In this document: in pieces, positions 23,003 through 46,843 of the stretch
Position numbering within the stretch: position 1 is the first letter of the stretch
How the letters are laid out: every line of letters starts with the position of its first letter
Assembly (NCBI GenBank): GCA_024277025.1
Contig: JAJRWA010000126.1
Span: 1-53,301 of the forward strand
DNA from: Candidatus Krumholzibacteriota bacterium
GTDB lineage: Bacteria > Krumholzibacteriota > Krumholzibacteriia > LZORAL124-64-63
Length of the DNA: 53,301 bases
Direction of reading: 5' to 3'
Translations under genes and position numbers: made by a program
The notes under the pieces: generated by a model
The model's database searches: none
What the model saw: only the letters and a program-made list of their open reading frames with translations
Told to the model about the DNA's origin: nothing

Positions 23003-24414
23003 CACTGCTGTCCTAAACAGGACAGGGTTCTCTTCCTGCCCCTTAATTCCCAACATTTTACCCGCCTAAATTACGTTTTTCCAGATGAGGTTGCCCGTTT
23101 TTGTCCTGGTCTCCACGCTAGCCTGTCCTAATCACGGCAGCCCCAGCTCCAACTGCACCGGCATTGGTAGAAGTGGCGGCGTATTGAACGGGTCATCAAG
23201 CCAGTCGGCCAACTCTCGGTAGGTAAAGAGGTTCAAGCGAAGCATCGTCGCCAGGTTGGATAGCGACCACCCCGCCTTGGACAGATGGTGCAGCCATTTC
23301 AGCAACAGCATAGCGATCAAGGCTGTCCAAATCTGGATGCGAAGCGCATTTTCACTGGTGCCGACAAAACTCCGGACTTTCAGATTCTGTTTCAGCGCCT
23401 TGAAGAACAGTTCAATCTGCCAGCGCTCTTTGTAGATGGCCCCGATTGTCGTGGCCCCGAAGTCCAGATGGTTGGTGATCAGGACGATCTCGCGTTCGTT
23501 TTCCCGGTCCCAAACAACGACACGGCGCAAAAAGCAGGGGCATTTCTTTTGAGCCTGTGATCCGGTTAATCGGATCACTTCATCGGACAAGATATTTCGA
23601 TTGGTTGGCACGGGAAGGTCATGGATAGTCTCGTAGACGGCGTTATCCTTCATTCGGGTCACGAAGAAGATTCCGTCTTCGGTCCAGCGAGCAAACTGCC
23701 GGTAGTCGTTGTAGGCGCGGTCCATTGCTACGATTGATCCGGGCTGTAACTTCAATAACTTGAGAACCTTGGAATCATGCAACTTGGCTTCACTGATCAG
23801 GACATATGAGGGCAAGTAGTCGTCATGGTCCAGAAGTACGTGGGCTTTGACGCCGCCTTTGGCGCGGCGGAATTCGGCCCAGGGAAACAGATTCAGGCAA
23901 AGGCTGATTGTTGTGGAGTCCAATGACAGGAGTTTGTTTTTGAAGCGGAACTTGTGCTTCCGCGGCCCAAGGTGACCCTGGGTACGGAACCGATCGGTCA
24001 TTTCCCATAACAGATCCTCGAAGATGGCCGCAGGCCGACGGGCATTGGCATACGACAGGTTGGACTTGCTTGGTCTACGGCCGATCCCCAAGTGCGCAAG
24101 CTTGCCGAGACAGCACGCCAAACCATTGCAGATATCACGCAAGGAATCGGCATGGGCCATCTGACAGAACAGCATGGCGGTCATTTGAGTCCAGCAGGTG
24201 AAGCCCTTGGCGCCGCGTTCGCCTTGGTGTTTTTTGACCAGGGCAGCGAAATCATTCCGGGGAATTTGCTTGAGAAGTTGACTGAATAGGCTGGCGGACT
24301 TTACCATCTGTTGGCCCCTCCTGGACGTGTTGTGAAAAGGATTTTTAGTCGAACCCAATTCTCACACGGCCACGGGGGGCCTCGTCAATATTTCAATTGT
24401 TTAGGACAAGAGTG
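23003..24414 (-). mobile_element. IS4-family insertion sequence (1412 bp)
   Basis: The element is bounded by 17-bp imperfect terminal inverted repeats: CACTGCTGTCCTAAACA on the left and, read inward from the right, CACTCTTGTCCTAAACA (15 of 17 match). It is flanked by 9-bp direct repeats AGTCGATGT. It carries one complete transposase gene on the minus strand, the same direction as the gene it interrupts. Ends, duplication and transposase are all intact, which points to a recent insertion. Confidence 0.93.
23132..24307 (-). CDS. IS4-family DDE transposase
   Basis: This is a 391-residue cut-and-paste transposase. The ATG before VKSASLFSQLLKQIPRNDF is chosen because GAGGGG lies upstream. The N-terminal domain (about 1-75, with FTCWTQMTAMLFCQM and SLRDICNGL) matches the DUF4372-type DNA-binding segment. 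The RNase H-like core has the first Asp in LLSLDSTTI, the second in VAMDRAYND and the Glu in the Y-(2)-R-(3)-E-(6)-K signature (YKERWQIELFFKALK). All catalytic residues are present and the frame is intact, so the element is probably still active. Confidence 0.95.
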   Translation of the reverse strand: MVKSASLFSQLLKQIPRNDFAALVKKHQGERGAKGFTCWTQMTAMLFCQMAHADSLRDICNGLACCLGKLAHLGIGRRPSKSNLSYANARRPAAIFEDLLWEMTDRFRTQGHLGPRKHKFRFKNKLLSLDSTTISLCLNLFPWAEFRRAKGGVKAHVLLDHDDYLPSYVLISEAKLHDSKVLKLLKLQPGSIVAMDRAYNDYRQFARWTEDGIFFVTRMKDNAVYETIHDLPVPTNRNILSDEVIRLTGSQAQKKCPCFLRRVVVWDRENEREIVLITNHLDFGATTIGAIYKERWQIELFFKALKQNLKVRSFVGTSENALRIQIWTALIAMLLLKWLHHLSKAGWSLSNLATMLRLNLFTYRELADWLDDPFNTPPLLPMPVQLELGLP

Positions 24415-30945: not shown

Positions 30946-31116
30946 GGCAATCAGGCGGGATATTGCCCACCAGACCGTTCCTCCGTACATTCAGTGGATC
31001 CGGCTGTGCGCAGACTGCGGCACACTGCCCACCCCATGCTCTGCCTGCAGACCTACCGGATCGTAACCTCGACCGCGTGGTTGCGTAGGGGGGCATACTA
31101 CGGTTGACCCGCCTGA

Positions 31117-31134
31117 CCCGGATGGAAATCCGGG
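31117..31134 (+). repeat. Small hairpin in the leader of the third subtilisin gene
   Basis: CCCGGAT and ATCCGGG are closed by a GGAA tetraloop. It is 144-161 bases before the chosen start codon. It may be a terminator for the upstream block or an RNA leader element; no T-run is present. Confidence 0.45.
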
Positions 31135-31277
31135 TAGACACTTCGCACTCCCTGAGGACGAACATGCTCGCAATCCGCTTAGGAAAAGCCCGACACGACG
31201 CCCGTGATTGTCCGAATTTCGCATCCGGCGATCATCCGGCCCCTCGCGCTGCTTTTTCCTGTCGGTGGGGATCTTCA

Positions 31278-34200
31278 GTGAGCATCGGGTTCGCCCTTAC
31301 CCTGCTGTTGCTCGGAGGATTCCTGCCGGCGGTCGGGGGACAAGACGCCCTGGCCGCTCCGGCCAGCGAGTATTTCCGGAATCATCTTGATCAGGACGGC
31401 AATGGCGTTGAGGACCTGCTCGATGCCTGGCGTCGGGGCCAGGCGGCCTGGAGCGCCCTGCAGCAGGCAGCGCAGCCGAAACGCCCGGCGGCTGCGGGAG
31501 CGGCCAAATCCGGCGACCGTGCTGAATTCCCGGATGGCGTGGCACCGGCCAGTTCCGTGGTCGCCGCCGGCCGCCTGCGAATCCTCTGCCTGGGGGCCAC
31601 GGCGGGGCAACTGAGCACGCCGGTGGCCGCCGCGGCCGGCGAGGGCGTGTGCCGGGTCGTGCAGGATGTGTCGCGCTTCGGCGGCATCACGGTGCTGGTT
31701 GTCGATGCGGCCGGGCTGGACCGGTTCCTGGCGGACGGGCCTGCCTGTGCGGTGATGCTCGACCGCGAAGGCGTCCCCGCTCTGGTGGACAGCCGCCACC
31801 TGGTCGGCGTCGGCCGGGTGACGGCCGGAGCCCTGGACCTGGGCAATGACTGGTCCGCCACGGTGGCTATCCTGGACTCGGGCATGGACTCGGCCCACGG
31901 CGATCTGGGGGACGCGCCGGATGACGATCTCGATGGTCCGCCCCCCGCCGTTGGTGACGCCGGCGACTGGTTCGATGCCAGCGGGGGCTGGCCGCTGTTC
32001 GCGGGCTACACCGCCGTGGGCTGGCACGACGTGACCGATGACTTTCCCGGCAGCCAGGGGCCCTGGGACTACAACTACCACGGCACGGCCCTGGCCTCGG
32101 TCGTGGCCGGCAGCGGGACCGTCGACCCGGACTACCGCGGTCTGGCCCCTGGCGGCCGCTTGACGATCGTCAAGTATTGGGACTTCGACGAAACCTGGCA
32201 CGCCTGGGCCGGGGACTTCCTGGCCGCCTGTGCCTGGCCCCTGGACAACCGCGAGACCTATCGCGTGCGCACGGTGCTGATGGCCGCCAACTGGGAGGTG
32301 GACGCGGGCATCAGCGCGGCCATGGCGGCCTTTGTCGACGCGGGACTGCTGCCGGTGGTGGCCATGGGCAACTACGGTGATAATCCGGCCGGTCCGGGTT
32401 ATCCCGCTTCGCTGCCGGAGGTGCTGGCCGTCGGGGCCGCCAACAGCAACGGCGAGGTCAGCGCCTACAGCGGCCGCGGCCTGGCCGGACAGCAGAAGCC
32501 GGATCTGGTGGCACCCGGCGGTGGTCTGCTGCCGGGGAACGGGCGCATTGTCGCGGCTGACAACGAGCCCGACGATACCTACAGCGGACGCTTCGGCACC
32601 AGCCTGGCGGCGGCCCATGTGGCGGGCGCGGCTTTCATGCTGGATGAGGCGTTGCTGGAGAACGGGCTGGCACCAGCCCACGATCGCGCGGGTGTCGAAG
32701 CCCGGCAGATCGTGCTGAGAATGACGGCAGCCTACGTGGCCGCGGCCGAAACGCCGGACGGCAGTGGCAGTCTGGCCCTGCCCCCGTATAACGGGAATGA
32801 CCCTGCCCGCGGCTTCGGACTGCTGCGCGTGGATGCGGCCGTCCACGCCATGATCGACCCCCTGCGGCCCGGCCAGGATCAGGCGGACACGCTGAGCAGC
32901 GACTGGCAAAAACCCGTGGTGGCCCGCCGCCTGGAGACCAGCCCCGGGGTGCGCTATCTGGTGGAGGCCGTGCCCGCCGCCGGCCTGGACGTCGTGGTGG
33001 AAGTGGTCGAAGTCGGTGTTGACGGCCAGCTTCTGCGGCTGGACGTCAATGGCGCCGGCGTTTCGGAGTTCGGGTATTTCCGGCCGGGCACCGACAGCTG
33101 GGCCTTTGTCGTGGTCAAACGCCTGTCCGGAGCCGGGGGCGTGACCCTGCGTCTGCGGGAAGAGGATTCATTCACTGCCCAAGGTGCCGGCCTGACCCTG
33201 CCCGGGGTGGGCTCGGGGGCGCCGAACATGGGCTATCTGGCGCCGTTCACGGGGCCGTCACTGATCGTGCCGTCGCGGGTCCTGGTCGATCCGGTTGCCC
33301 GCTCGCTGAACGTGTTGGACACGACCGGGAGTTTTCGCCCCGGTTGGCCCGTCTTCGTGTTTCCGGCCACGGCCAGTCAAGGCGGGTTGACCCAGCCGGT
33401 GGCCCTGAATCTGGATGGCGTTGGCGGCGATGAAATCGTCACCGCATCCGAGTTCGGTTCCATCTATTTCTTCACCGGCGACGGCAGTGTCAAGACGGTT
33501 GATCTGGAACTGAACCGTTCACTGACCAGGCCGGTCGGTTTTCAGAACGCGGTTGGTGGTTGGCGCGTGCTGGTTGTTGACAAGCTGGGCTGGGCCCGCA
33601 CCTGGTCGTGGAATGCCGCGGCAGGAACCGGTCCGGAGCTGGAAATCGAGATTCCGCTGGGGCACAACCTGCCGCTCGCACCGGCGGCCGGGCGTCTGGC
33701 CGGCGGTGGCGGCGAGTCGGTGGTGATCGCTTTTGCGGACGGCTGGCTGGGGGTTCTGGATGAGAATCTGAATCTGCGCAGCGGCTGGCCGCTGGCCCTG
33801 GGGGTGCCGCTGGAAGTGGCGCCGGTTCTCTGCGACCTCGATGGTGACGGTCTGCATGAGATTGTGCTGCCGGTACGCGACAATCTGAGTGGACAACTGA
33901 CCATGCGGGTCTTCGATGGCGCGGGAAACTCTCTGCCAGCCGATGGTACGGTTGTGCCGGCCCCCCGCGGAGGCCGCTGGCTGTCCCTGTCCGAGGCGTC
34001 GGTGTCCGGCTGGTCGGGGGCCGGGACCCTGGCGGTTTCAGTCGTGGGTTTGGCGGACAATGGGCTGGCCGGGGACGCGACTGTCTGGTCATTGGGTCTG
34101 GGGCGGCTGTTGGCCACAGGTGGCGCCGAATCAGTTGACCTGGCCGGGTTCTCCATTGGTGCGTCCACCGCCGAAGGCCAGTTGCAACTGGACAATCTGC

Positions 34201-34877
34201 TGCTGCCGGCACCTTTGGCCTGGAGTCAGGCCGGTGGGGTACAAACCGAATCCGGTGTCCTGTTCCATGTTTGCTGGAGTGAATTGCTCTATGGGTTCAC
34301 CTCACTGCCGGGCGGCACGACCGGCTGGCTGCTGCCGGCCCACGGAAATTCGCCGCTGGTGCAGAAGCAGCCTCTGACTTTGGGCGGCGCCCAGCAGGCG
34401 CCGTTGTCCTATCTCGGCGGAATGCTGGTGCCGTTGGCGGAGGGACTCCTGCTCAAGGTGGTCACGGTTGAGCGTGAGCTCGGAGTGGCTCCGCTGCTGA
34501 CGACTGCGACCTCGGCACCCCTGTGGCGGTCCGAGCGCGGCGACAGCCGCAACAGTGGTGCTTATCCGCTGGCCCAGTCCGTTTCGGCGGTCCAGCCCGC
34601 CGTGGTCTTGTCGCGCCAGTTGCAGGCCTACCCCAATCCCGGCAGCGGGCGCATTCGGTTCCGCAGCCGGGGGACCGGCCTGGACGGCGGCACCCGCCTG
34701 GATATTTTCGACCTGCGGGGACGGCGCGTACGGCGGCTGCAGGGCGCTGACGGGGAGGGGGTTGTCGCCTGGGACGGCCGGGATGAGCAGGGCCGCCAAT
34801 TGGCCGCTGGGGCCTATCTGGCGGTGGCACGGTCCGGTGGACAGCGCTTGACGACCCGGCTGGTGCTCACCCGCTGA
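31278..34877 (+). CDS. Secreted subtilisin-like serine protease with FG-GAP-type repeats and sorting tail
   Basis: The product is 1199 residues from GTG, chosen because it starts directly at a signal peptide (IGFALTLLLLGGFLPAVGG) after GGTGGGG. ATG 31164, with AGGA upstream, is an alternative that adds 38 poorly coding residues. The S8 triad is complete: Asp200 (ILDSGMDSAHGD), His268 (YHGTALASVVAG) and Ser442 (FGTSLAAAHVAG). After the peptidase come FG-GAP/VCBS-like segments (ALNLDGVGGDEIVTASEFG, LCDLDGDGLHEIVLPV). A diverged sorting module ends the chain (AYPNPGSGRIRFR, WDGRDEQGRQLAAGAY, RLVLTR). It stands alone, between the ribosomal block and the 2047-residue orphan. Confidence 0.9.
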   Translation: MSIGFALTLLLLGGFLPAVGGQDALAAPASEYFRNHLDQDGNGVEDLLDAWRRGQAAWSALQQAAQPKRPAAAGAAKSGDRAEFPDGVAPASSVVAAGRLRILCLGATAGQLSTPVAAAAGEGVCRVVQDVSRFGGITVLVVDAAGLDRFLADGPACAVMLDREGVPALVDSRHLVGVGRVTAGALDLGNDWSATVAILDSGMDSAHGDLGDAPDDDLDGPPPAVGDAGDWFDASGGWPLFAGYTAVGWHDVTDDFPGSQGPWDYNYHGTALASVVAGSGTVDPDYRGLAPGGRLTIVKYWDFDETWHAWAGDFLAACAWPLDNRETYRVRTVLMAANWEVDAGISAAMAAFVDAGLLPVVAMGNYGDNPAGPGYPASLPEVLAVGAANSNGEVSAYSGRGLAGQQKPDLVAPGGGLLPGNGRIVAADNEPDDTYSGRFGTSLAAAHVAGAAFMLDEALLENGLAPAHDRAGVEARQIVLRMTAAYVAAAETPDGSGSLALPPYNGNDPARGFGLLRVDAAVHAMIDPLRPGQDQADTLSSDWQKPVVARRLETSPGVRYLVEAVPAAGLDVVVEVVEVGVDGQLLRLDVNGAGVSEFGYFRPGTDSWAFVVVKRLSGAGGVTLRLREEDSFTAQGAGLTLPGVGSGAPNMGYLAPFTGPSLIVPSRVLVDPVARSLNVLDTTGSFRPGWPVFVFPATASQGGLTQPVALNLDGVGGDEIVTASEFGSIYFFTGDGSVKTVDLELNRSLTRPVGFQNAVGGWRVLVVDKLGWARTWSWNAAAGTGPELEIEIPLGHNLPLAPAAGRLAGGGGESVVIAFADGWLGVLDENLNLRSGWPLALGVPLEVAPVLCDLDGDGLHEIVLPVRDNLSGQLTMRVFDGAGNSLPADGTVVPAPRGGRWLSLSEASVSGWSGAGTLAVSVVGLADNGLAGDATVWSLGLGRLLATGGAESVDLAGFSIGASTAEGQLQLDNLLLPAPLAWSQAGGVQTESGVLFHVCWSELLYGFTSLPGGTTGWLLPAHGNSPLVQKQPLTLGGAQQAPLSYLGGMLVPLAEGLLLKVVTVERELGVAPLLTTATSAPLWRSERGDSRNSGAYPLAQSVSAVQPAVVLSRQLQAYPNPGSGRIRFRSRGTGLDGGTRLDIFDLRGRRVRRLQGADGEGVVAWDGRDEQGRQLAAGAYLAVARSGGQRLTTRLVLTR

Positions 34878-34945: not shown

Positions 34946-37900
34946 ATGGAAAAGAGCACCTCCTCAAGCACCCAGCACGGCAGCACCTACTGGCAGCTAT
35001 TGGCGGCGGCCGATGATGCCCTGCAGGTCGGCGACTATCCGGCTGCCGAGCGCCGCTATCTGGATGCCTGCGCCCTGCGCGACGCCTCACCGGGGCGTGT
35101 TTTTGTCACCGAGAAAATTGGCGATGGCTTGCGGCGCCTGTTGGGCAGCCGCCGGGCCGGTGCGGCAGCGAAAGGTCTGAGCGGACGCTGGCAGCGGGCC
35201 AGCCGCGCCTTCGTCGACGACTTCAATGGCCGCGGCGAGCACATCGTGCGCGAGGGCGTGCGTTTGGCCGAACTGCGTCCCGAGGACGATGCGGAGACCA
35301 ACCAGCCCATTCTGGAATCCGCCCTGTTTCTCGTCGCTCGCAGCCAGATATTCCAGGATGAGCCGGCTTCGGCGGTGCCGTTGCTGCGGGGCGTGTTCCG
35401 GGCGGCGGCGCGCACCGGACGACCATTCAGCGTCGATCTGGTCCGGCACGATCTGCCGCTGACCGAAGAAGACCGCCTGTGGATGGCTCGCAAGGGCGGG
35501 GAACTGGTCGAATCCTTCGTGGAACAGGGGCATCTGCGGCAGGGTTCGCCGGAGGCTGCAGAGTGGGCCGAGGTGTTTCTGCAACTGCTGCAGGCGCGCT
35601 ACTTCGGCAGCACCGGCCGGCTGGCCGAAGAGCGGGCCTGGCTGGAGGCCCTGACTGCCGACCGTCTGCTGGGGCGCGCGGCGGCCAGCGTGGAATTGTA
35701 TCGGGCCTATCTGGCGGTCAATCCGGAACCCGGATCGCGGCCGGACGAGGCTCGCGTACGTCTGCTCGAGCTGTTGGGCAACACCCACGCGGTCAATTTC
35801 CCGGTACCTCGCTATGAGGAAGCGCTGGGGGCCATGCAGTCGGCGGGCCTGGCGTCCGGCAGTGCGGTCGGCGGCCGCTTCGAAGAGGCTCTGGCGCGGT
35901 TGGAATATCGCCGGCCCGATGGCGATCCGACGGCGAGACAGGCACCGGCCTGGGCCTCGGCTGCGGTCGAACCGGACGGCCGGGTCGCCGTTGTCTACTG
36001 GTGGGACAACGAACCACGAGACCTGGCGTTCTGGCGACCGGGCGAGAGCACCGCAGCCCTGGAAGATTTTCTGTCTCCCTGCGCGGGCCGCCTGCTGGCC
36101 GCCGATGAAGCGACTTTGGCGGCGACCGCGGGTCAATGGGTCTCTGAGCCGGCGCCCTGGACGTCCGAGGAATTCGTGGCCGCGATCATGGAGAGCGTCC
36201 TGCCTGCCTCCGGCCTGGAGCCAACGGCAATGCTGCGTCTGGCACTGGCGGAGACCGGCCCCTGGCGTGCGGGATGGCGCCCGGGCCTGGGCCACAGCCT
36301 GCTGGAGCCACCGCACAGTTCAACTCTGGTGGACGCCTGGCAGCAGGGCACCGCGGTGGGGGCGCTGCAGGCCGGCCTGATGTTTCTGGCGGTCCGCAGC
36401 CGGGTTGCCGCCGCGGATATTTCCCTGCGTGCCGGTATCGGCGAGATGGCCCGACGTGGCGATCCTGCCTCTGACTTCCTGTACGGTTTTCTGACCCTGG
36501 ACAGTGAAGCAGACCGGGCGCTGGACGCCAGTTTTGAAGCCTGGACCCTGCCGCTGCTCTGGACCCGGCCCGACCCCTTCGGCTGGGGCAACAACGCGGC
36601 CGCCGGCGGGGTGTCGGCTGCGGCCGAGGTGGGCATCCGGCCTGATCTGGGGCGCAGCGATTTGACGATAGTGACGACCGGCAATGCGCCGGCGGTGCTG
36701 ACGGCCTGGGGGGACGGCAAGCAGAAGTGGCGGGTCGTGCTGGACCGGATGGACCGGCTGGAGAGCCTGGCTCAGGTGGCCGGTGGCGTGATGGGGCCGG
36801 TCACGTTGATCCCACGTGATGGCCTGGTCCATTCCCTGGCCGCAGCCCTCCAGTTGCTGGAAGATCTCCTGGTGACGGCCCAGCCCGGGTCGGACGGTCT
36901 GCTGGCCCTGTTTCACTGGACCCGCCTGGTGGAGACCCATAACGGGGACCTGCTCGATTTTCAGCAGGTGCGGCCTCGTCCGGTCGGCGCCATTCCGCTC
37001 TATGAGCGGTACGGGGAAAAAATCGCCGGGCTGGCCCAGGACCGTCCGTCGCTGTCGGCGGACGGTTCGCTGGACACCGAGACCCTGCGCACCTGGGGCG
37101 GCCAGTTCAGCCAGCGCGTGCGCAAGGCCGGACTGGTGGCCGGGACCTGCGCCCATCTGGGCACCGATGGGTCGACCCTGGATGCCCTGTGGGGTGTCTT
37201 CGAAGGGAGCGACGCGGCCTGGGTTTTCCTGGACAGCGCGGCCGTGCACTGGACCCTGCACGAACAAGGTGATTTGGGGATCCAGGAGCTGCACAAGCTG
37301 CTGCACAGCCGCGGCGGCCGGCATCTGAGCCTTTTGTCGGCGGCGGCCTGGCAGCGTACCGAACTGGAGGAGTTGCTGGCCACCTGGCTGCGGGTCTTCG
37401 GCAGTGCCTACTGCCTGAGCCTGACTGATACGCGGGCGCCGGCACTGCGGCTGGTCGACCGCGGCGTGCGGCCGGAGGCGAGGTTGGCCGCTGCCGACGA
37501 GTTGGCCGGAACCGTGACCTGGATCGACCGCCGGTTTGCGGAAGAAGGAGCGGGGACCGTGCGCCTGCCGGGTGACGGTCGGACCGGCGAGTTCTGGCGC
37601 CAGATTCGCAGCGGTGACCTGGCCCTGGCCGGACAGGATTGGCATTTCCTGGCCGATGACCGCGAGGCTCCCGGTTTGCCGTCGGCGGCGCTGGTCGTCC
37701 CTGTCCTGCGCAGCCTGGCCGGCGATGGCGTGCCGCGGGCCAGGCAGGATGCGCGCGTGGCCTGGGCCGAGGCCGACCGCGAGCGCGCGGCCTACCTGGG
37801 CTGGCGGCGCAAGCTGTGTGCCCTGGAGATCGCTTCGCTGATGGCTGGGCACTGGCGCAGCGTGGACATCCTGGACACCAGATGGTGGCGCCTCTTGTGG

Positions 37901-40900
37901 TCCGCAGCACCGGCAGCGGCAAGTGCCCGGCCGTGGACCGGCGAGTTGGCGGCCCAACTGGCGACCAATGGGGTGGCGCGAACCTTTGACTTGCCCGGCA
38001 CCGCGGGCTCCGGGGGTCCCATCGACAGCCGGGTCCGGGAAATCGTCCAGGGCTGGCTGGCTCGCCAGGAGGGTGCTGAGCCAGGCTTGGACTCAGCGGT
38101 CGCGACGATCCCCGCGCCACCCGCCGGCGTTCAGCTCCTGGTGGGAGATCTGGCTGCCATCTGGGAACAGAGCAGCCGGTATCTGGCCGTCCAGTGGGAG
38201 CGCGGCGAACTGGCGCGGTGGATGCTTGTGGTCGCTGACAAGATACCGGCCGGAGCCGCCGACCTGGTGGCTGACGGTGGTGTGGCGGGTCGCTCGGTGT
38301 GGGGCGGTGATCTGGAGCCGGACCTGCTCACCCCGGTCCTGTGGGTTGGTCCGGAGGACTTCGCTGACGCACGTCTGCGCCAGTTGCTGGCCGAACGTCC
38401 GCCCGAGATCATCGTGGCCGATGACCTGGCGGACTGGCTGCCCAGTGCGGTCCGTGATGGACAGGAAACGGCGCTTGCCCTGCGCGGGATCCTCGATTGC
38501 GGCGCTCATGCCGTCGTGCTGCATGCCCGGGAGCTGGCTGCCAACTGGGCCGATTTTCTGGCCGGTGCGTGTGGCGCGCGTCTGGCCAACACCACCGGCA
38601 GCGTCGGTGTGGTGCCCGCTGCGGCCACACCGGACAAGCCCCTCTGTGTGGATTGCGGCTGTCCCGATCGACCGGCGGCACTGGCCCGGCGCTTGCGCGT
38701 CCTGCTTGAGCGTATGCGCGAGGTGCTGGTTGCGGTCGCAGGCGAAGAAGCCGACGGTGTGGCGCCGCCGCCGGACCGACAGTTGCTGCCGACCAAGTGG
38801 CTGGCGCGGTTGAGTGGCATGAGCAGCGAGGAGGTCAATGAAGGGGTTCTGCTGCTGCGCTGGGCGGCGCGGTTGAATGGGGATTCCCTGTCTGCGGCGG
38901 GTGGTGAAGGTGCGGACGGAATGTCCGGCGGCCATACCCTGGTCATCGCCAGGCGCTATGCGGAACTGGAAACGATCCTGGCCAAACTGGGCGAGAATCT
39001 GGCCGTGCTGCTGCCGCTCTGGTTCGCCGGGACGACAGTGCCCGGGTTGTTGGGCGCCATCGATCTGGAGCAGCCACCGGTGCGCATCGACCGCCGGGAA
39101 CTGGCTCTGGTCGATGCGTTTCTCGGGGCGGTGGCCGCCGGGTCCAGCTACGGCTGCCGGCTGGTCTACACTTGCCCGCGCGGCCTGTTGAACTCGGCGA
39201 CGCGGCTGGTGGGCTGGGATGGTCCACTGCAGGAAGTCGTGCCCGCCCTGCAGGCGGCGCTGGATGTGTTTCGCGGCCGCGTGCGGGATGTGCTGGAGTC
39301 CGCTCTGGAGACCGGTGCCGGTTTTCGGGTGGAAACAGGCCTGACCGAACTGAGGGCCGAGGAGAGCGACTTCATGGGTCTCGGTGTTGTCCTGGGGCTC
39401 TGGCGCTGGTTGGGACCGCCGTGCCGTGAAGTACTGTATCTGGTGGATCTGTTGACGGTTGCGGACAGCCCGACGGTTCGCCAGTCACCTCTGGGCTGGG
39501 ACTTGTTCAGGGCGCAGATGGCGCCGCGCTACCCGGTGGCGCCGGTGGACCTGCCCGCGCGGCGGGTCGACCGCAAGGCGGCGGGACCACTGCCGAGGCT
39601 GGGGCAACTCCGGCGCCTGCTGTCGTCGGGCGTGGAGGCCAGCGATGATCTGGACACCGTGGTGGAACGTGTGCATCAGGTCACTGGCAGTCCTGGCGAC
39701 CCGGCGTTGCTGGTGCTCAAGGGCATGCTGGGTACCGGACGTCATGAAGTGGTCGTGCGTGGGCTGCTGCGTACGCTCAATCAGGCAGCGGATCCGGGCG
39801 AAATCGTGATCTATTGCCCGGACCAGGCGGTGGCGGCCATGATGTCGCGTGAGTTTCTGCAGCGGGGCTATTGCCGACCACTGGACATCCGGGTGCCAGC
39901 CGGCGGAAGTGGTGTGCCCGCCGGGCCCAACGCTTTGCCGGCCCTGGCCCGGCCTGAGACGGCCGTGGTCGTGATGTGTGAAGTGCAGCGCTTCGATGCG
40001 GAGACCCGCTACCGCGTGGCCCAGATGGGACGGGGCAAGCTGCTGGTGATGACGGCGGATCCGGTGGCCAGTCTGGAACCGTGGGAGCACCTTTTCCTGA
40101 CCACCCCGCGGGCCAACGAAATCATTGAACTGACGAGCCAGCGACGCCTGAGCAAGGCCATCTGGAGCGAGGTCCGGGCCCTGGCGCCGGCCGATCTGGC
40201 CCCCGGCGGGAGGACGCGCCGGCACGAGCGCGGTCACCTCGAGTCCGGCTATGCGGCCAACCTGGTGCAGAGCCTGGCCCGGGTTGTGGCGGCCCGGGCC
40301 GAGGGCACTTTGCCGATGACCTTGCGCCTGACGACTCCGTTGGCTGCGGATCTCGAATTCCTGTCAGGCCAGTTGCGTGAACGCGGCTGGCTGGCTGTGC
40401 CGGAAGCAGAACTGGATGCCGTGTTGTTGCCGGGTCCCCGTGAAATTCTGGCTGCGGTGACTGATGCCCTGGCGCGCAACGGCGAACTGGCGCTGGCTTT
40501 CCCCGCGGCGACGACGACCCCGGAAGCTGGTGGCGGTGCCGATGGTGCCAGGGCGGCCGGGGGCGTACCGGCACAGGCTGAGGAATCCGGGACTGAAGAA
40601 CCGGTTCCCGCCGAGCTCATGCTGCCGCGGCTGCTCGGACCCGGTGCCCAGGCAGACTGGCGGGCCTGGGCGGACGGTTGCGAGGCGGATGCCGAACTGA
40701 CGCTGGCCGAGTTTGTCGGCCGGCTGGTGGGCACGCCCTGGGCCAACACCTTCCTGCGGCAGCCCGAGTCCCGGCACCGCTGCGAGGAACTGCTGGCCCG
40801 CTGGGGTGATCAGCCCCTGCGCTCACTGCTGTCGACGCCTTTGTGGGGCGCCTGGTGGCATACGATGACTGCGGATCTGGGCCTGCGGCCACCGGTTTCC

Positions 40901-41089
40901 CAACGGCCGGTCGTGGTGCTCAGCGATACGGCCAGGTTGCCGGGCTGCCGGGTGCCGGGCGGGGCCTATCTGTGCCTGGGCACCGAACCGGCCCGCCAGC
41001 ACTACGAATTTCTCGGCCGCCTCACCGATAGCGCCGTGGTTCTGTATCAGGAGCGCTCACCTTTGCCGGGCGAAGCGCGCGGCACCTGA
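34946..41089 (+). CDS. 2047-residue orphan protein with TPR-like start and degenerate NTPase-like motifs
   Basis: I do not recognise the family. No signal peptide or membrane helix is visible, so it should be cytoplasmic. Residues about 10-70 look TPR-like (ALQVGDYPAAERRYLDACAL). Near the middle, PEIIVADDLADWL (Asp1159-Asp1160) looks like a Walker B/DEAD-like strand. A Cys cluster CVDCGC sits at 1234-1239. At about 1587-1705 there is a P-loop-like KGMLGTGRHEVV (1592-1603, Arg in place of the usual Lys), VVVMCEVQRF with Glu1679, and KLLVMTADP (Asp1705), in the order and spacing of SF1 helicase motifs I, II and III but with key residues changed. The open frame is intact over 6.1 kb with codon use like its neighbours. 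It follows the third subtilisin gene by 68 bases. Confidence 0.85.
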   Translation: MEKSTSSSTQHGSTYWQLLAAADDALQVGDYPAAERRYLDACALRDASPGRVFVTEKIGDGLRRLLGSRRAGAAAKGLSGRWQRASRAFVDDFNGRGEHIVREGVRLAELRPEDDAETNQPILESALFLVARSQIFQDEPASAVPLLRGVFRAAARTGRPFSVDLVRHDLPLTEEDRLWMARKGGELVESFVEQGHLRQGSPEAAEWAEVFLQLLQARYFGSTGRLAEERAWLEALTADRLLGRAAASVELYRAYLAVNPEPGSRPDEARVRLLELLGNTHAVNFPVPRYEEALGAMQSAGLASGSAVGGRFEEALARLEYRRPDGDPTARQAPAWASAAVEPDGRVAVVYWWDNEPRDLAFWRPGESTAALEDFLSPCAGRLLAADEATLAATAGQWVSEPAPWTSEEFVAAIMESVLPASGLEPTAMLRLALAETGPWRAGWRPGLGHSLLEPPHSSTLVDAWQQGTAVGALQAGLMFLAVRSRVAAADISLRAGIGEMARRGDPASDFLYGFLTLDSEADRALDASFEAWTLPLLWTRPDPFGWGNNAAAGGVSAAAEVGIRPDLGRSDLTIVTTGNAPAVLTAWGDGKQKWRVVLDRMDRLESLAQVAGGVMGPVTLIPRDGLVHSLAAALQLLEDLLVTAQPGSDGLLALFHWTRLVETHNGDLLDFQQVRPRPVGAIPLYERYGEKIAGLAQDRPSLSADGSLDTETLRTWGGQFSQRVRKAGLVAGTCAHLGTDGSTLDALWGVFEGSDAAWVFLDSAAVHWTLHEQGDLGIQELHKLLHSRGGRHLSLLSAAAWQRTELEELLATWLRVFGSAYCLSLTDTRAPALRLVDRGVRPEARLAAADELAGTVTWIDRRFAEEGAGTVRLPGDGRTGEFWRQIRSGDLALAGQDWHFLADDREAPGLPSAALVVPVLRSLAGDGVPRARQDARVAWAEADRERAAYLGWRRKLCALEIASLMAGHWRSVDILDTRWWRLLWSAAPAAASARPWTGELAAQLATNGVARTFDLPGTAGSGGPIDSRVREIVQGWLARQEGAEPGLDSAVATIPAPPAGVQLLVGDLAAIWEQSSRYLAVQWERGELARWMLVVADKIPAGAADLVADGGVAGRSVWGGDLEPDLLTPVLWVGPEDFADARLRQLLAERPPEIIVADDLADWLPSAVRDGQETALALRGILDCGAHAVVLHARELAANWADFLAGACGARLANTTGSVGVVPAAATPDKPLCVDCGCPDRPAALARRLRVLLERMREVLVAVAGEEADGVAPPPDRQLLPTKWLARLSGMSSEEVNEGVLLLRWAARLNGDSLSAAGGEGADGMSGGHTLVIARRYAELETILAKLGENLAVLLPLWFAGTTVPGLLGAIDLEQPPVRIDRRELALVDAFLGAVAAGSSYGCRLVYTCPRGLLNSATRLVGWDGPLQEVVPALQAALDVFRGRVRDVLESALETGAGFRVETGLTELRAEESDFMGLGVVLGLWRWLGPPCREVLYLVDLLTVADSPTVRQSPLGWDLFRAQMAPRYPVAPVDLPARRVDRKAAGPLPRLGQLRRLLSSGVEASDDLDTVVERVHQVTGSPGDPALLVLKGMLGTGRHEVVVRGLLRTLNQAADPGEIVIYCPDQAVAAMMSREFLQRGYCRPLDIRVPAGGSGVPAGPNALPALARPETAVVVMCEVQRFDAETRYRVAQMGRGKLLVMTADPVASLEPWEHLFLTTPRANEIIELTSQRRLSKAIWSEVRALAPADLAPGGRTRRHERGHLESGYAANLVQSLARVVAARAEGTLPMTLRLTTPLAADLEFLSGQLRERGWLAVPEAELDAVLLPGPREILAAVTDALARNGELALAFPAATTTPEAGGGADGARAAGGVPAQAEESGTEEPVPAELMLPRLLGPGAQADWRAWADGCEADAELTLAEFVGRLVGTPWANTFLRQPESRHRCEELLARWGDQPLRSLLSTPLWGAWWHTMTADLGLRPPVSQRPVVVLSDTARLPGCRVPGGAYLCLGTEPARQHYEFLGRLTDSAVVLYQERSPLPGEARGT

Positions 41090-43534: not shown

Positions 43535-44425
43535 ATGTTCGGTGTTTCTTCCCCGCGTCGTTGGGTCTCCGCATTGATGCTGGCGCTGCTGGCTGTGACC
43601 CTCGTTGGCATGATCGGTTGCGGAGAAAAGGAAGTCGTGGACCCGTACGTATTCGATTCGCTGCGGCGGATCACCCGGGGCGACACCCTGAGTGCCGGAT
43701 TCCTCTTTGAGATCAATGCTCCCGAGTTCGAGTACGTTCGGGGCAATACCGCCATCGTGCGCGAGGGCAACCTCCTGGAGTTCCTGGTCGGCGAGGACCT
43801 CGAGAACAACTACCGCAACCTGGCCGGCACGCTGCTCGGTGTGAAGAAGACCTTCAGCCCGCAGCCGACCCACTTCGTGATCCAGCGCATCAAGCGCAAT
43901 AGCGTGGTCGAAGCCGACAGTCTGCCGGCGCCCGAGCATTATGTCCTGCCGCGCCTGCTGCGCGCCGGCGCGGTGGACCTGGAGACTCCGGGTGCGCCGC
44001 TGCCCGAGTTGGGCTGGAAGACGAAGGACATCAAGGCGGCCCGCTCGACTTTTCTGCCCGAGAACGAGGGCGACGACCTGAGGCCCGTGCAGACCGGTAT
44101 CGAGAAATTCGTCTACGTGCCCCGGCACGATCTGGCGGACAGCGTCAAGGCCAACCCCTCGCCCGAGGATTACGCCTGGTATGCGGTTTTCCCCGAGTCG
44201 GCCCTGGAGATCGTCGACGTCACGCCGGGTGCGGACTGGATGCTGCACCTGATGCTGGACAAGGACCTGCCGCTGATCGGTTCGTTCTCCCTGCTGAGCC
44301 TGAACGACAAGTATCAGGAGCGCAAGATCGAGCACGAGGGCCTCGGCCATGTGGTCGGCACGATGAAGATCAACTGGTTCAAGTACGGCAACACCTTCAT
44401 CGAGGGCAGCAAGCGGGAAGACTAG
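43535..44425 (+). CDS. Lipoprotein of unknown function
   Basis: The product is 296 residues. The ATG follows GGGAGG. The signal sequence (WVSALMLALLAVTLVGMIGC) ends in a lipobox with the lipidated Cys at about 29. The mature part is alpha/beta with many charged residues (FLFEINAPEFEYVRGNT, KFVYVPRHDLADSV) and no recognised domain. The position after the signal (GEKEVVD) does not contain an inner-membrane retention Asp at +2. It stands alone between a predicted promoter and a strong terminator. Confidence 0.85.
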   Translation: MFGVSSPRRWVSALMLALLAVTLVGMIGCGEKEVVDPYVFDSLRRITRGDTLSAGFLFEINAPEFEYVRGNTAIVREGNLLEFLVGEDLENNYRNLAGTLLGVKKTFSPQPTHFVIQRIKRNSVVEADSLPAPEHYVLPRLLRAGAVDLETPGAPLPELGWKTKDIKAARSTFLPENEGDDLRPVQTGIEKFVYVPRHDLADSVKANPSPEDYAWYAVFPESALEIVDVTPGADWMLHLMLDKDLPLIGSFSLLSLNDKYQERKIEHEGLGHVVGTMKINWFKYGNTFIEGSKRED

Positions 44426-44502: not shown

Positions 44503-45462
44503 TCAGACCAGGATCTCCATCAACCGCGCGTCCTGCAGTACGGCTTTGGCCGAGACTTTGCCCGACTTGGCGAGACTACTGGTCTTGAACTTGTTCGCCA
44601 CCACGCCGACCATGACACCGTGCTTGCCCTCGAACAGCAACTCGGTGGCCTTGTGCCCCAGGCGGCTGGCCAGGATGCGGTCGTAGGCTGAAGGTGACCC
44701 ACCGCGCTGGACGTGGCCCAGGACCACCATGCGCACGTCCCGCGCCAGGCGTTCCTGCAACTCGAAGCTGACGTACGAGGCCTTGCCCGCCCCCTCGGCC
44801 ACGATGATGATGGCGTGCTGCTTGCCACGCTTGTATCCGGCCGAGATCCGGCGCGCCACGTCATCGATCTTGTAGGGGATCTCGGGCAACAGCACTTCCT
44901 CGGCGCCGGTGGCGATGGCCGTCTGGGCCGCCAGCAGTCCGTACGAACGCCCCATCACTTCGATCACAAAAATCCGGCCGTGGCTGGTGGCCGTGTCGCG
45001 CACCTTGTCCACCGCGTCGATGGCGATGTTCAGGGCCGTGTCGAAGCCGATACTGATGTCTGTTCCGGGGATGTCGTTGTCGATGGTGGCCGGTACGCCC
45101 ACGACCGGGATACCGAACTCTTTGGTCAGCTTGGTCGCGCCGCGGAACGAGCCGTCGCCGCCGATGATCACCATGCCATCAAGCTTCAGTTCCTTGATCG
45201 TCTTGGCTACGGGCGCGGTGCCTTCCTCGGTGGCGAATTCCGGATAACGGAATGTGCGCAGCACCGTGCCACCCTTGTCCAGGATGCCGCTCACCGAACC
45301 GGGCGTCATGGTCTCATAGGTGCCTTCAGCCAGGCCACGCCAGCCGCGTATGATGCCGATGACTTCGGCGTCGTGTTGCCAAGCCGTGCGCACGACCGCG
45401 CGCAGTGCTGGATTCATGCCGGCCGCATCGCCGCCACCGGTCAGGACTCCGATTCGTTTCAT
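44503..45462 (-). CDS. pfkA: ATP-dependent 6-phosphofructokinase
   Basis: The 319-residue glycolytic enzyme phosphorylates fructose 6-phosphate. Nucleotide binding is seen in LTGGGDAAGMN (about 8-18) and GGDGS (101-105); the Gly after GD is the feature that marks the ATP rather than the pyrophosphate type. The catalytic loop is PATIDNDIPGTD (124-135). MGRSYGLLAAQTAIATGAE follows. GGGGAGG for its start is inside the end of rarA, and only one base separates the genes, so the two are cotranscribed. Confidence 0.96.
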   Translation of the reverse strand: MKRIGVLTGGGDAAGMNPALRAVVRTAWQHDAEVIGIIRGWRGLAEGTYETMTPGSVSGILDKGGTVLRTFRYPEFATEEGTAPVAKTIKELKLDGMVIIGGDGSFRGATKLTKEFGIPVVGVPATIDNDIPGTDISIGFDTALNIAIDAVDKVRDTATSHGRIFVIEVMGRSYGLLAAQTAIATGAEEVLLPEIPYKIDDVARRISAGYKRGKQHAIIIVAEGAGKASYVSFELQERLARDVRMVVLGHVQRGGSPSAYDRILASRLGHKATELLFEGKHGVMVGVVANKFKTSSLAKSGKVSAKAVLQDARLMEILV

Positions 45463-45463
45463 G

Positions 45464-46843
45464 CTATGCCTCCCCGGGCCCGTTCGGCCCTTCTGGTTCT
45501 TGACGTCGTTCGTGCCAGCGTCTGATCCGGGCCATGCGCTCGGCCAGTTCGGCCTCGAAGCCGCGCCGGCCCGGTTCGAAGTAGTCGGTGCCCCGCAGGG
45601 TGTCGGGCAGGCAGCTCATTTCGGCCACACCGTCGGCGGTGTCGGGGGCGTAGACGTACCCCTTACCGTAGCCGAGCCCTTTCATCAAGCGGGTCGGCGC
45701 GTTGCGCAGATGCAGGGGCACCGGCGGATTGTGCCCGCGCGCCACCTCGCGCGCCGCCTTCTGGTACCCCTTGTACAGGGCGTTGCTCTTGGGGGAAAGC
45801 GTCAGATAGACCACGGCCTGGGCCAGAGCCAACGCGCCCTCGGGCATGCCGAGGAAGTGCACGGCGTCCCGTGCGTCCAGGGCCTGGCGCAGGGCCGTCG
45901 GCTCGGCCAGACCGATATCCTCGCTGGCGAACCGCACCACGCGGCGCGCGATGTACAGCGGATCCTCGCCGCCTTCGAGCATTCGGGTCAGCCAGTAGAG
46001 CGCCGCATTCACGTCGCTGTTGCGCATGCTCTTGTGCAAGGCCGAGATGATGTTGAAATGCTCTTCGCCGGCCTTGTCATAACGGGCGGCCCGGGTCTGG
46101 ATGTACTCGGCGACCCGCTCGGCGCTCACGGCAGCGGCCGCAGTGGCGCCGATCCCATCGGCCCTGGCGGCCAGGGCCACCGTTTCCAACTGGCCGAGGG
46201 CGGCCCGGGCGTCGCCCTCGCACATCTCGGCCAGCAGTTCGAGCCCGTCGTCGGCCAGGTGCACGGCTCCGGCCAGACCGCGTGGGTCGGTCAGCGCCCG
46301 GTCCAGCAGCAACCGGATATCTTCGGGCTTCAGGGGCGTCAGGACGAACAGGCGGGTCCGCGAAATGAGCGCGCTGTTGACCTCGAAGCTGGGATTCTCG
46401 GTCGTCGCCCCGATCAGGGTCACGTCTCCGCGCTCGACCCAGGGCAACAGCGCGTCCTGCTGGGCCTTGTTGAAGCGGTGGATCTCGTCCAGGAAGAGAA
46501 TTGTCCGGGTGCCGGTGGCTCGTTGCAGCTTCTGGGCATCGGCCATGACGGCCTTCAGCTCTTTCGTGCCCACGGACACGGCGCTGTATTCCAGGCAGCG
46601 GGCTGCCGTCCGACTGGCGATCAGACGGGCCAGGGTCGTCTTGCCACAGCCCGGCGGTCCCCACAGCAACAGTGAGGGTACGGCGTCGGCCTCCAGCAGA
46701 AGTCGCAACGGACCCTTGGGTCCGACGAGATCGGCCTGACCGACGATTTCGTCCAGGCCGGCGGGACGCATGCGGTCCGCCAAGGGGGCGTGGGGCCGGG
46801 CCGGGTCGTCGCCGGCAGATGCAGCAAAGAGGTCGTTGTTCAT
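45464..46843 (-). CDS. rarA: Replication-associated recombination protein RarA (MgsA)
   Basis: This is a 459-residue clamp-loader-like AAA+ ATPase that acts at stalled replication forks. Motifs: LADRMRPAGLDEIVGQ at the N-terminus, Walker A GPPGCGKTT (about 62-70), Walker B ILFLDEIHRFNKAQQDALLP, sensor 1 IGATTENPSFEVNSALISR and the C-terminal tetramerisation region with KSMRNSDVNAALYWL and ARRVVRFASEDIGLAEP. The length and all motifs are standard. It is divergent from deoB. Confidence 0.95.
   Translation of the reverse strand: MNNDLFAASAGDDPARPHAPLADRMRPAGLDEIVGQADLVGPKGPLRLLLEADAVPSLLLWGPPGCGKTTLARLIASRTAARCLEYSAVSVGTKELKAVMADAQKLQRATGTRTILFLDEIHRFNKAQQDALLPWVERGDVTLIGATTENPSFEVNSALISRTRLFVLTPLKPEDIRLLLDRALTDPRGLAGAVHLADDGLELLAEMCEGDARAALGQLETVALAARADGIGATAAAAVSAERVAEYIQTRAARYDKAGEEHFNIISALHKSMRNSDVNAALYWLTRMLEGGEDPLYIARRVVRFASEDIGLAEPTALRQALDARDAVHFLGMPEGALALAQAVVYLTLSPKSNALYKGYQKAAREVARGHNPPVPLHLRNAPTRLMKGLGYGKGYVYAPDTADGVAEMSCLPDTLRGTDYFEPGRRGFEAELAERMARIRRWHERRQEPEGPNGPGEA

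Follow-up and report, generated by a model that had tools for sequence, protein, structure and literature searches.

The locus described here raises the question of what a chain of 2047 residues can do that appears to be assembled from several helicase folds and carries no usable Walker A lysine at any P-loop site, and whether its gene is maintained at all. The gene is present in a single copy in a metagenome-assembled genome of a Krumholzibacteriota bacterium (3.82 Mb in 276 contigs) and lies in the window, the whole stretch of 53,301 nucleotides that was analysed:

34946..41089, + strand: fused pseudo-helicase gene, 2047 aa (open reading frame, orthologues, dN/dS)

An earlier note, made from the sequence of the window, had described this 6.1-kb gene as intact, which is borne out by a frame that is open from the ATG across all 2047 codons and that is kept in relatives. 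As the frame is retained at identities as low as 20-25%, coding and length are far beyond chance. One near relative with 68% identity (L031) was found in a single-protein scan of genome contigs. The statement of the same note that no family is recognisable is correct as far as sequence profiles go: the protein matched none of the Pfam or NCBIfam families at E ≤ 10, Pfam searches across 20 orthologues gave chance-level matches only, and both profile searches and a direct sequence search of the PDB, which revealed no close sequence, returned nothing beyond zinc-ribbon or chance matches. It does not hold for structure, by which most of the length can be placed.

Orthologues are encoded in 36 of 38 genomes of the family to which the window genome belongs (f1), the two genomes without one being 75-76% complete, and in all four genomes of a second family (f5). 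These organisms are not known to have been cultured. One f5 orthologue is divided across two contig ends (L076 on G042:C12 and L108 on G042:C39), which is probably an assembly break. No orthologue was found in the 38 other genomes of the class that were examined; matches near E 0.005-0.01 in G051 and G060 lie in short or partial frames. The distribution is strictly vertical, and searches by sequence found no copy in collections of plasmid and viral contigs. In agreement with the purifying selection that had been assumed for such a large frame, dN/dS values determined by the method of Nei and Gojobori for ten orthologue pairs were 0.05-0.21 in nine pairs and 0.31 in the tenth, a pair of low divergence (dS 0.15). 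By region, the TPR-like, DinG-like, and SF1 parts described below had the lowest values, and those of residues 1040-1560 were somewhat higher; for the TPR-like and DinG-like parts, dN/dS was 0.05-0.16 in most pairs. These low values indicate that the gene is maintained.

The structure of the N half (residues 1-1060) was predicted with AlphaFold2 from an alignment of 33 orthologues (pLDDT 86.3, pTM 0.79), and comprises the following parts:

34946..35935, + strand: all-helical, TPR-like repeat region, residues 1-330 (AlphaFold2 helix pairs, Foldseek)
35948..36355, + strand: domain of three strands and helices, residues 335-470 (DSSP; putative assignment)
36353..37975, + strand: DinG/XPD-like SF2 module, residues 470-1010 (Foldseek, hhalign, motif alignment)

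The TPR-like start that had been suggested from sequence is consistent with the helix pairs of the model and with Foldseek matches of residues 1-330 to TPR proteins, both designed and natural ones (E about 0.01); the sole Pfam TPR match among 20 orthologues was TPR_14 in one of them (E 0.039). The DinG-like module, at about residues 470-1010, had been missed altogether. The three best Foldseek matches of the N half are all DinG proteins, namely DinG of S. aureus (8.7e-7, probability 1.00, and 6.2e-6) and a CRISPR-associated DinG (4.7e-5), followed by XPD and CasDinG, and the predicted structure contains the MD1/MD2 fold of the XPD type. The top match, ExoDinG, spans 1029 columns, and residues 335-470 (strands 335-341, 347-353, and 356-363) would take the position of its N-terminal (pseudo)exonuclease; a DxE motif is not found in them. 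The P-loop of the module reads TTGNAP in the window protein and is TGRPTP-like in f5, the Walker A lysine being absent. In motif II, Asp763 is invariant and the glutamate is lost, so that DEAH has become DS or DD. The four cysteines of the DinG-type Fe-S cluster are kept in f5 and are absent from the window protein and from f1.

The alignment of the f5 orthologues had pointed to DinG before the Foldseek result came. Their LVCPE ... (T/S)P(D/E/N)GD corresponds to NYLC ... TxxGDL of DinG, CGDSCRLxxGPGCW to C..C...C, RVWV ... V(C/I/V)DDL to VVVNHALL ... DEAH, and the later VC(V/L)DPRLA to ilDpRl. An hhalign comparison of the f5 segment from the Fe-S region to DEAH with 29 native DinGs scored 31.1 in the expected register; 30 column shuffles reached 24.1 at most, and the RecQ and PcrA controls remained at null level. 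Profile-profile scores of the pseudo-helicase with native DinG and PcrA were weak, and full-length native DinG profiles gave no gain over a helicase-only profile. No Pfam match to Helicase_C_2 or DEAD was obtained for the pseudo-helicase; the native DinG of the same genome matches at 1e-36. This native DinG-type protein itself has a long N-terminal region that is not recognised by Pfam, which makes an origin of the DinG-like part by duplication plausible but unproved. A triple-fusion ancestor with an intact DinG was not found in relatives, in which DinG frames outside the family have at most about 1260 aa.

The middle of the chain comprises a second, eroded unit:

38108..38590, + strand: eroded RecA-like domain of a second SF2-type unit, residues 1055-1215 (strand-helix order)
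38645..38662, + strand: CVDCGC, residues 1234-1239 (orthologue alignment, tree)
38780..38947, + strand: strand-helix-helix-strand element, residues 1279-1334 (DSSP order)

In the model, strands and helices alternate over residues 1055-1215 with a pLDDT of about 80-93. A DEAD-like strand with Asp1159-Asp1160 had been noted in this part; it is present and located where motif II is expected, but the two aspartates are not conserved among orthologues. The CVDCGC cluster, which had also been noted, is the remnant of a four-cysteine CxxC...CxxC zinc ribbon, which is whole in f5 and in basal f1 orthologues. On a tree of 26 rows, a single change accounts for the loss of the ribbon, compared to a mean of 7.6 after shuffling, and this change falls on the branch that leads to the clade of the window and has full support. 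A RecA2-like stretch that follows the ribbon in basal f1 is missing from the lineage of the window. From the order of its secondary structure elements in DSSP, the region 1279-1334 is a possible winged helix. The resulting order of RecA, zinc, and winged helix led to RecQ being considered for the middle unit. This identity was suggested by eye in f5, where hhalign gave 21.6 against a shuffled maximum of 21.0, and found no support in basal f1, where the score was under the shuffled maximum.

The C half (residues 1005-2047) was modelled from an alignment of 29 orthologues, again with AlphaFold2 (pLDDT 82.1, pTM 0.81), and ends in an SF1A module:

39698..41086, + strand: UvrD/PcrA/Rep-like SF1A module, residues 1585-2047 (Foldseek against the PDB)
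39722..39745, + strand: worn motif I GMLGTGRH, residues 1593-1600 (orthologue alignment; Lys replaced by Arg)
39965..39991, + strand: worn motif II VVVMCEVQR, residues 1674-1682 (Asp lost; Glu1679 and Gln1681 kept)
40997..41065, + strand: motif VI-like C terminus QHYEFLGRLTDSAVVLYQERSPL, residues 2018-2040 (Arg2025 kept)

Foldseek matched the C half to UvrD (4.6e-9), PcrA (6.4e-9), and Rep (2.6e-6) in the PDB with a probability of 1.00 each, and REP helicase ranks first in a search of BFVD, so that the predicted structure can be said to contain an SF1A core fold. The P-loop fold that had been suspected at GMLGTGR is present in the model: a strand (1587-1593) is followed by the loop (1593-1599) and a helix from residue 1599, and the position is conserved. 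Across orthologues, motif I is mostly GxxG[ST]GR, the lysine of GxGKT being missing in all of them, and motif II (CEVQ, 1678-1681) is CExQ in most members, in which the aspartate of DExQ is lost and the other two residues are kept. The strand of motif III reads MTAD or MTVDP, and the C terminus HYEFLGRLTDSAVVLYQERSPL, with the orthologue versions HYRVATRAQRRLIVL and LLAASRARKVLHVL, forms the motif VI region. Glu1679, Gln1681, and Arg2025 are retained in at least about 90% of members. The earlier note had arranged these elements in the order of a single SF1 helicase, which does not agree with the models: the DEAD-like strand and the cysteine cluster are parts of another, RecA-like unit of SF2 type, and motifs II, III, and VI are all present within the SF1 unit itself (1585-2047). 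The models thus point to a conserved fused assembly of DinG-like and UvrD-like folds together with RecA-like and helical parts.

Among about 35 members, no P-loop site has a usable Walker A lysine, and the only two matches to a Walker A regular expression lie outside these sites. A canonical GKS in one orthologue (L048, residue 1527) precedes the SF1 P-loop and is not located at a P-loop site. Judged from the alignments, the P-loop lysine has been lost in every orthologue and the Fe-S and zinc ligands stepwise along the lineage, the orthologues forming a series of ordered intermediates in which both sets of ligands, then the zinc ribbon alone, and finally neither is kept. The pseudo-helicase would accordingly be read as incapable of ATP hydrolysis as a motor. 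The same genome encodes intact, Pfam-recognised DinG (C268), RecQ with RQC and HRDC domains (C211), and PcrA (C133), as well as an AddA-like frame with UvrD domains (C165); thus, the motors are covered elsewhere and are not replaced by the pseudo-helicase. The AddA-like frame (L111, G000:C165:6568-8004, - strand) has an in-frame TAG inside its Pfam match, which is either an assembly error or a sign of a broken gene. With regard to net charge, the pseudo-helicase does not exceed active helicases in basicity, and its composition therefore gives no indication of nucleic-acid binding. Its tryptophan content is 3.0% (2.6-3.4% in full-length orthologues); active helicases from the same group have 0.3-2.4%.

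Among described proteins, the N half is closest in order to ExoDinG and other DinG-like SF2 helicases such as S. aureus DinG (PDB 9ii8/8zef; PMC12345164), in which an N-terminal domain is followed by an XPD-like helicase and the Fe-S region lies between motifs Ia and II; the f5 proteins keep the four cysteines. In contrast to ExoDinG, the family of the window protein lacks the Walker A lysine, the Fe-S cysteines, and a recognisable DxE nuclease motif, has DS or DD instead of DEAH, and carries in addition a TPR-like front as well as two more helicase-like units. The C-terminal module shares with UvrD, PcrA, and Rep the order RecA1-RecA2 and motifs I, Ia, II, III, and VI at the expected places; it differs in the lysine-to-arginine exchange in motif I, the lost aspartate of motif II, a short 2B region, and its fusion to the end of a giant chain. 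Among bacterial relatives of DinG, proteins that have lost ATP-site residues or the Fe-S domain, or whose exonuclease is dead, have been reported as sDinG and pExoDinG; they were found by homology search from E. coli DinG and have no UvrD-like or TPR part (PMC11981726). The main text of this classification of DinG-like proteins mentions neither RecQ nor TPR, and UvrD solely as a cooperating helicase (PMC11981726). A precedent for a pseudo-helicase is the eukaryotic Utp25, a single DEAD-box core in ribosome assembly, in which selection keeps the helicase fold while the ATPase motifs are dispensable (PMC9539457). A search of one literature library for Krumholzibacteria and DNA helicase found no paper.

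Pseudo-helicases are rare; most of those known are single cores such as Utp25 or subunits of active machines such as RecC and AddB. The window protein is a chain of 220 kDa whose cores, of SF2 and SF1 type, have no motor residues in either family, yet purifying selection preserves it. Since the motor residues are gone and selection retains the gene, it is probably a structural platform and not a motor. There is about an even chance that the protein is a fused pseudo-helicase, specific to this lineage and inherited vertically, which serves as an ATP-independent scaffold or tether during DNA or RNA transactions. The earlier suggestion of a large scaffold-like protein is judged right, the role itself being inferred. 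The chain would consist of a helical TPR-like platform, a (pseudo-exonuclease)-DinG-like SF2 part, a RecA-like SF2-type part with the ribbon remnant, and a UvrD-like SF1A part. The helicase shells would serve nucleic acid and partners as fixed surfaces, and the predicted TPR-like region might dock a client protein; the likeliest clients would be active proteins of repair or of the fork, for instance the intact DinG, RecQ, PcrA, or RarA that are encoded elsewhere. A more specific and rather doubtful version is a lineage-specific hub in which three helicase shells from different superfamilies (DinG-like, other SF2-type, and UvrD-like) were first fused and later emptied of motor function, a single scaffold thereby placing these active proteins at forks or R-loops; if true, this would be a bacterial pseudo-helicase assembly without a described counterpart. 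The pseudo-helicase would be a natural experiment on the role of helicase folds without ATP.

The scaffold reading has to be weighed against others that take the same residues differently. Residual NTPase activity or nucleotide binding, with Arg1599 or migrated residues acting together with Glu1679 and Gln1681 in the SF1 part and Asp763 in the DinG-like part, would turn the protein into a nucleotide-sensing switch. The conservation of these four residues (90-100%) and the retained motif VI Arg2025 speak for it, but the P-loops otherwise vary freely (RITTGAM, GSCR, GTGAP, GGEGERR), the lysine is absent in all members, and the DinG-like P-loop has become TTGNAP, which makes such a switch unlikely. 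Fe-S ligands, zinc ribbon, and the RecA2-like segment of the middle have disappeared step by step, which could also reflect an old fused repair helicase that is being lost. Such decay is quite improbable in view of intact frames over 2000 codons in all complete copies, the dN/dS values given above, and the retention of the gene in nearly every genome of two families.

Known subunits of the pseudo-helicase kind include RecC and AddB, and AdnAB and RecBCD are among the weaker Foldseek matches of the C half; a RecBCD- or AddAB-like end-processing subunit, in which the pseudo-helicase would play the part of RecC or AddB, is nonetheless highly improbable, as UvrD, PcrA, and Rep score far better, no nuclease domain was found in the pseudo-helicase, and the AddA-like frame of the genome is not adjacent to it. 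The earlier note had also considered a role in defence, and size, helicase folds, and GajB at rank 25 of the C-half Foldseek search recall giant helicase-like defence proteins, e.g. the Druantia or Gabija helicases. This reading is the least probable of all: PADLOC gave no match for the pseudo-helicase, the gene was absent by sequence from viral contigs and plasmids, and it is a single-copy gene in a syntenic housekeeping setting, preceded by ffh-rpsP-khpA-rimM-trmD-rplS-rnhB-yraN, that is not island-like.

The pseudo-helicase gene has the gene for a secreted S8 peptidase on one side and that for a tryptophanase-like lyase on the other, and it is not in an operon with any repair gene; in the f5 loci seen, it comes after leuS. 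The S8 peptidase has a FlgD-Ig/T9SS-like tail and is encoded 68 bp upstream (window 31104-34877); the pair is retained in many f1 genomes and is not adjacent in the f5 loci seen. A lipoprotein of unknown family (window 43535-44425) is encoded downstream in both f1 and f5 and is conserved over nearly the whole class. When this lipoprotein was used to locate the corresponding position in other families of the class, no matching gene of such size was found. The downstream neighbourhood further contains, on the opposite strand, the genes for phosphofructokinase (pfk) and RarA/MgsA (rarA) at window positions 44503-46843. As a fork-rescue protein, RarA may be a functional neighbour of the pseudo-helicase. 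Elsewhere in the window, a DDE transposase (DUF4372/DDE_Tnp_1) is encoded on the - strand at 23132-24358, in a stretch of low G+C content (0.53).
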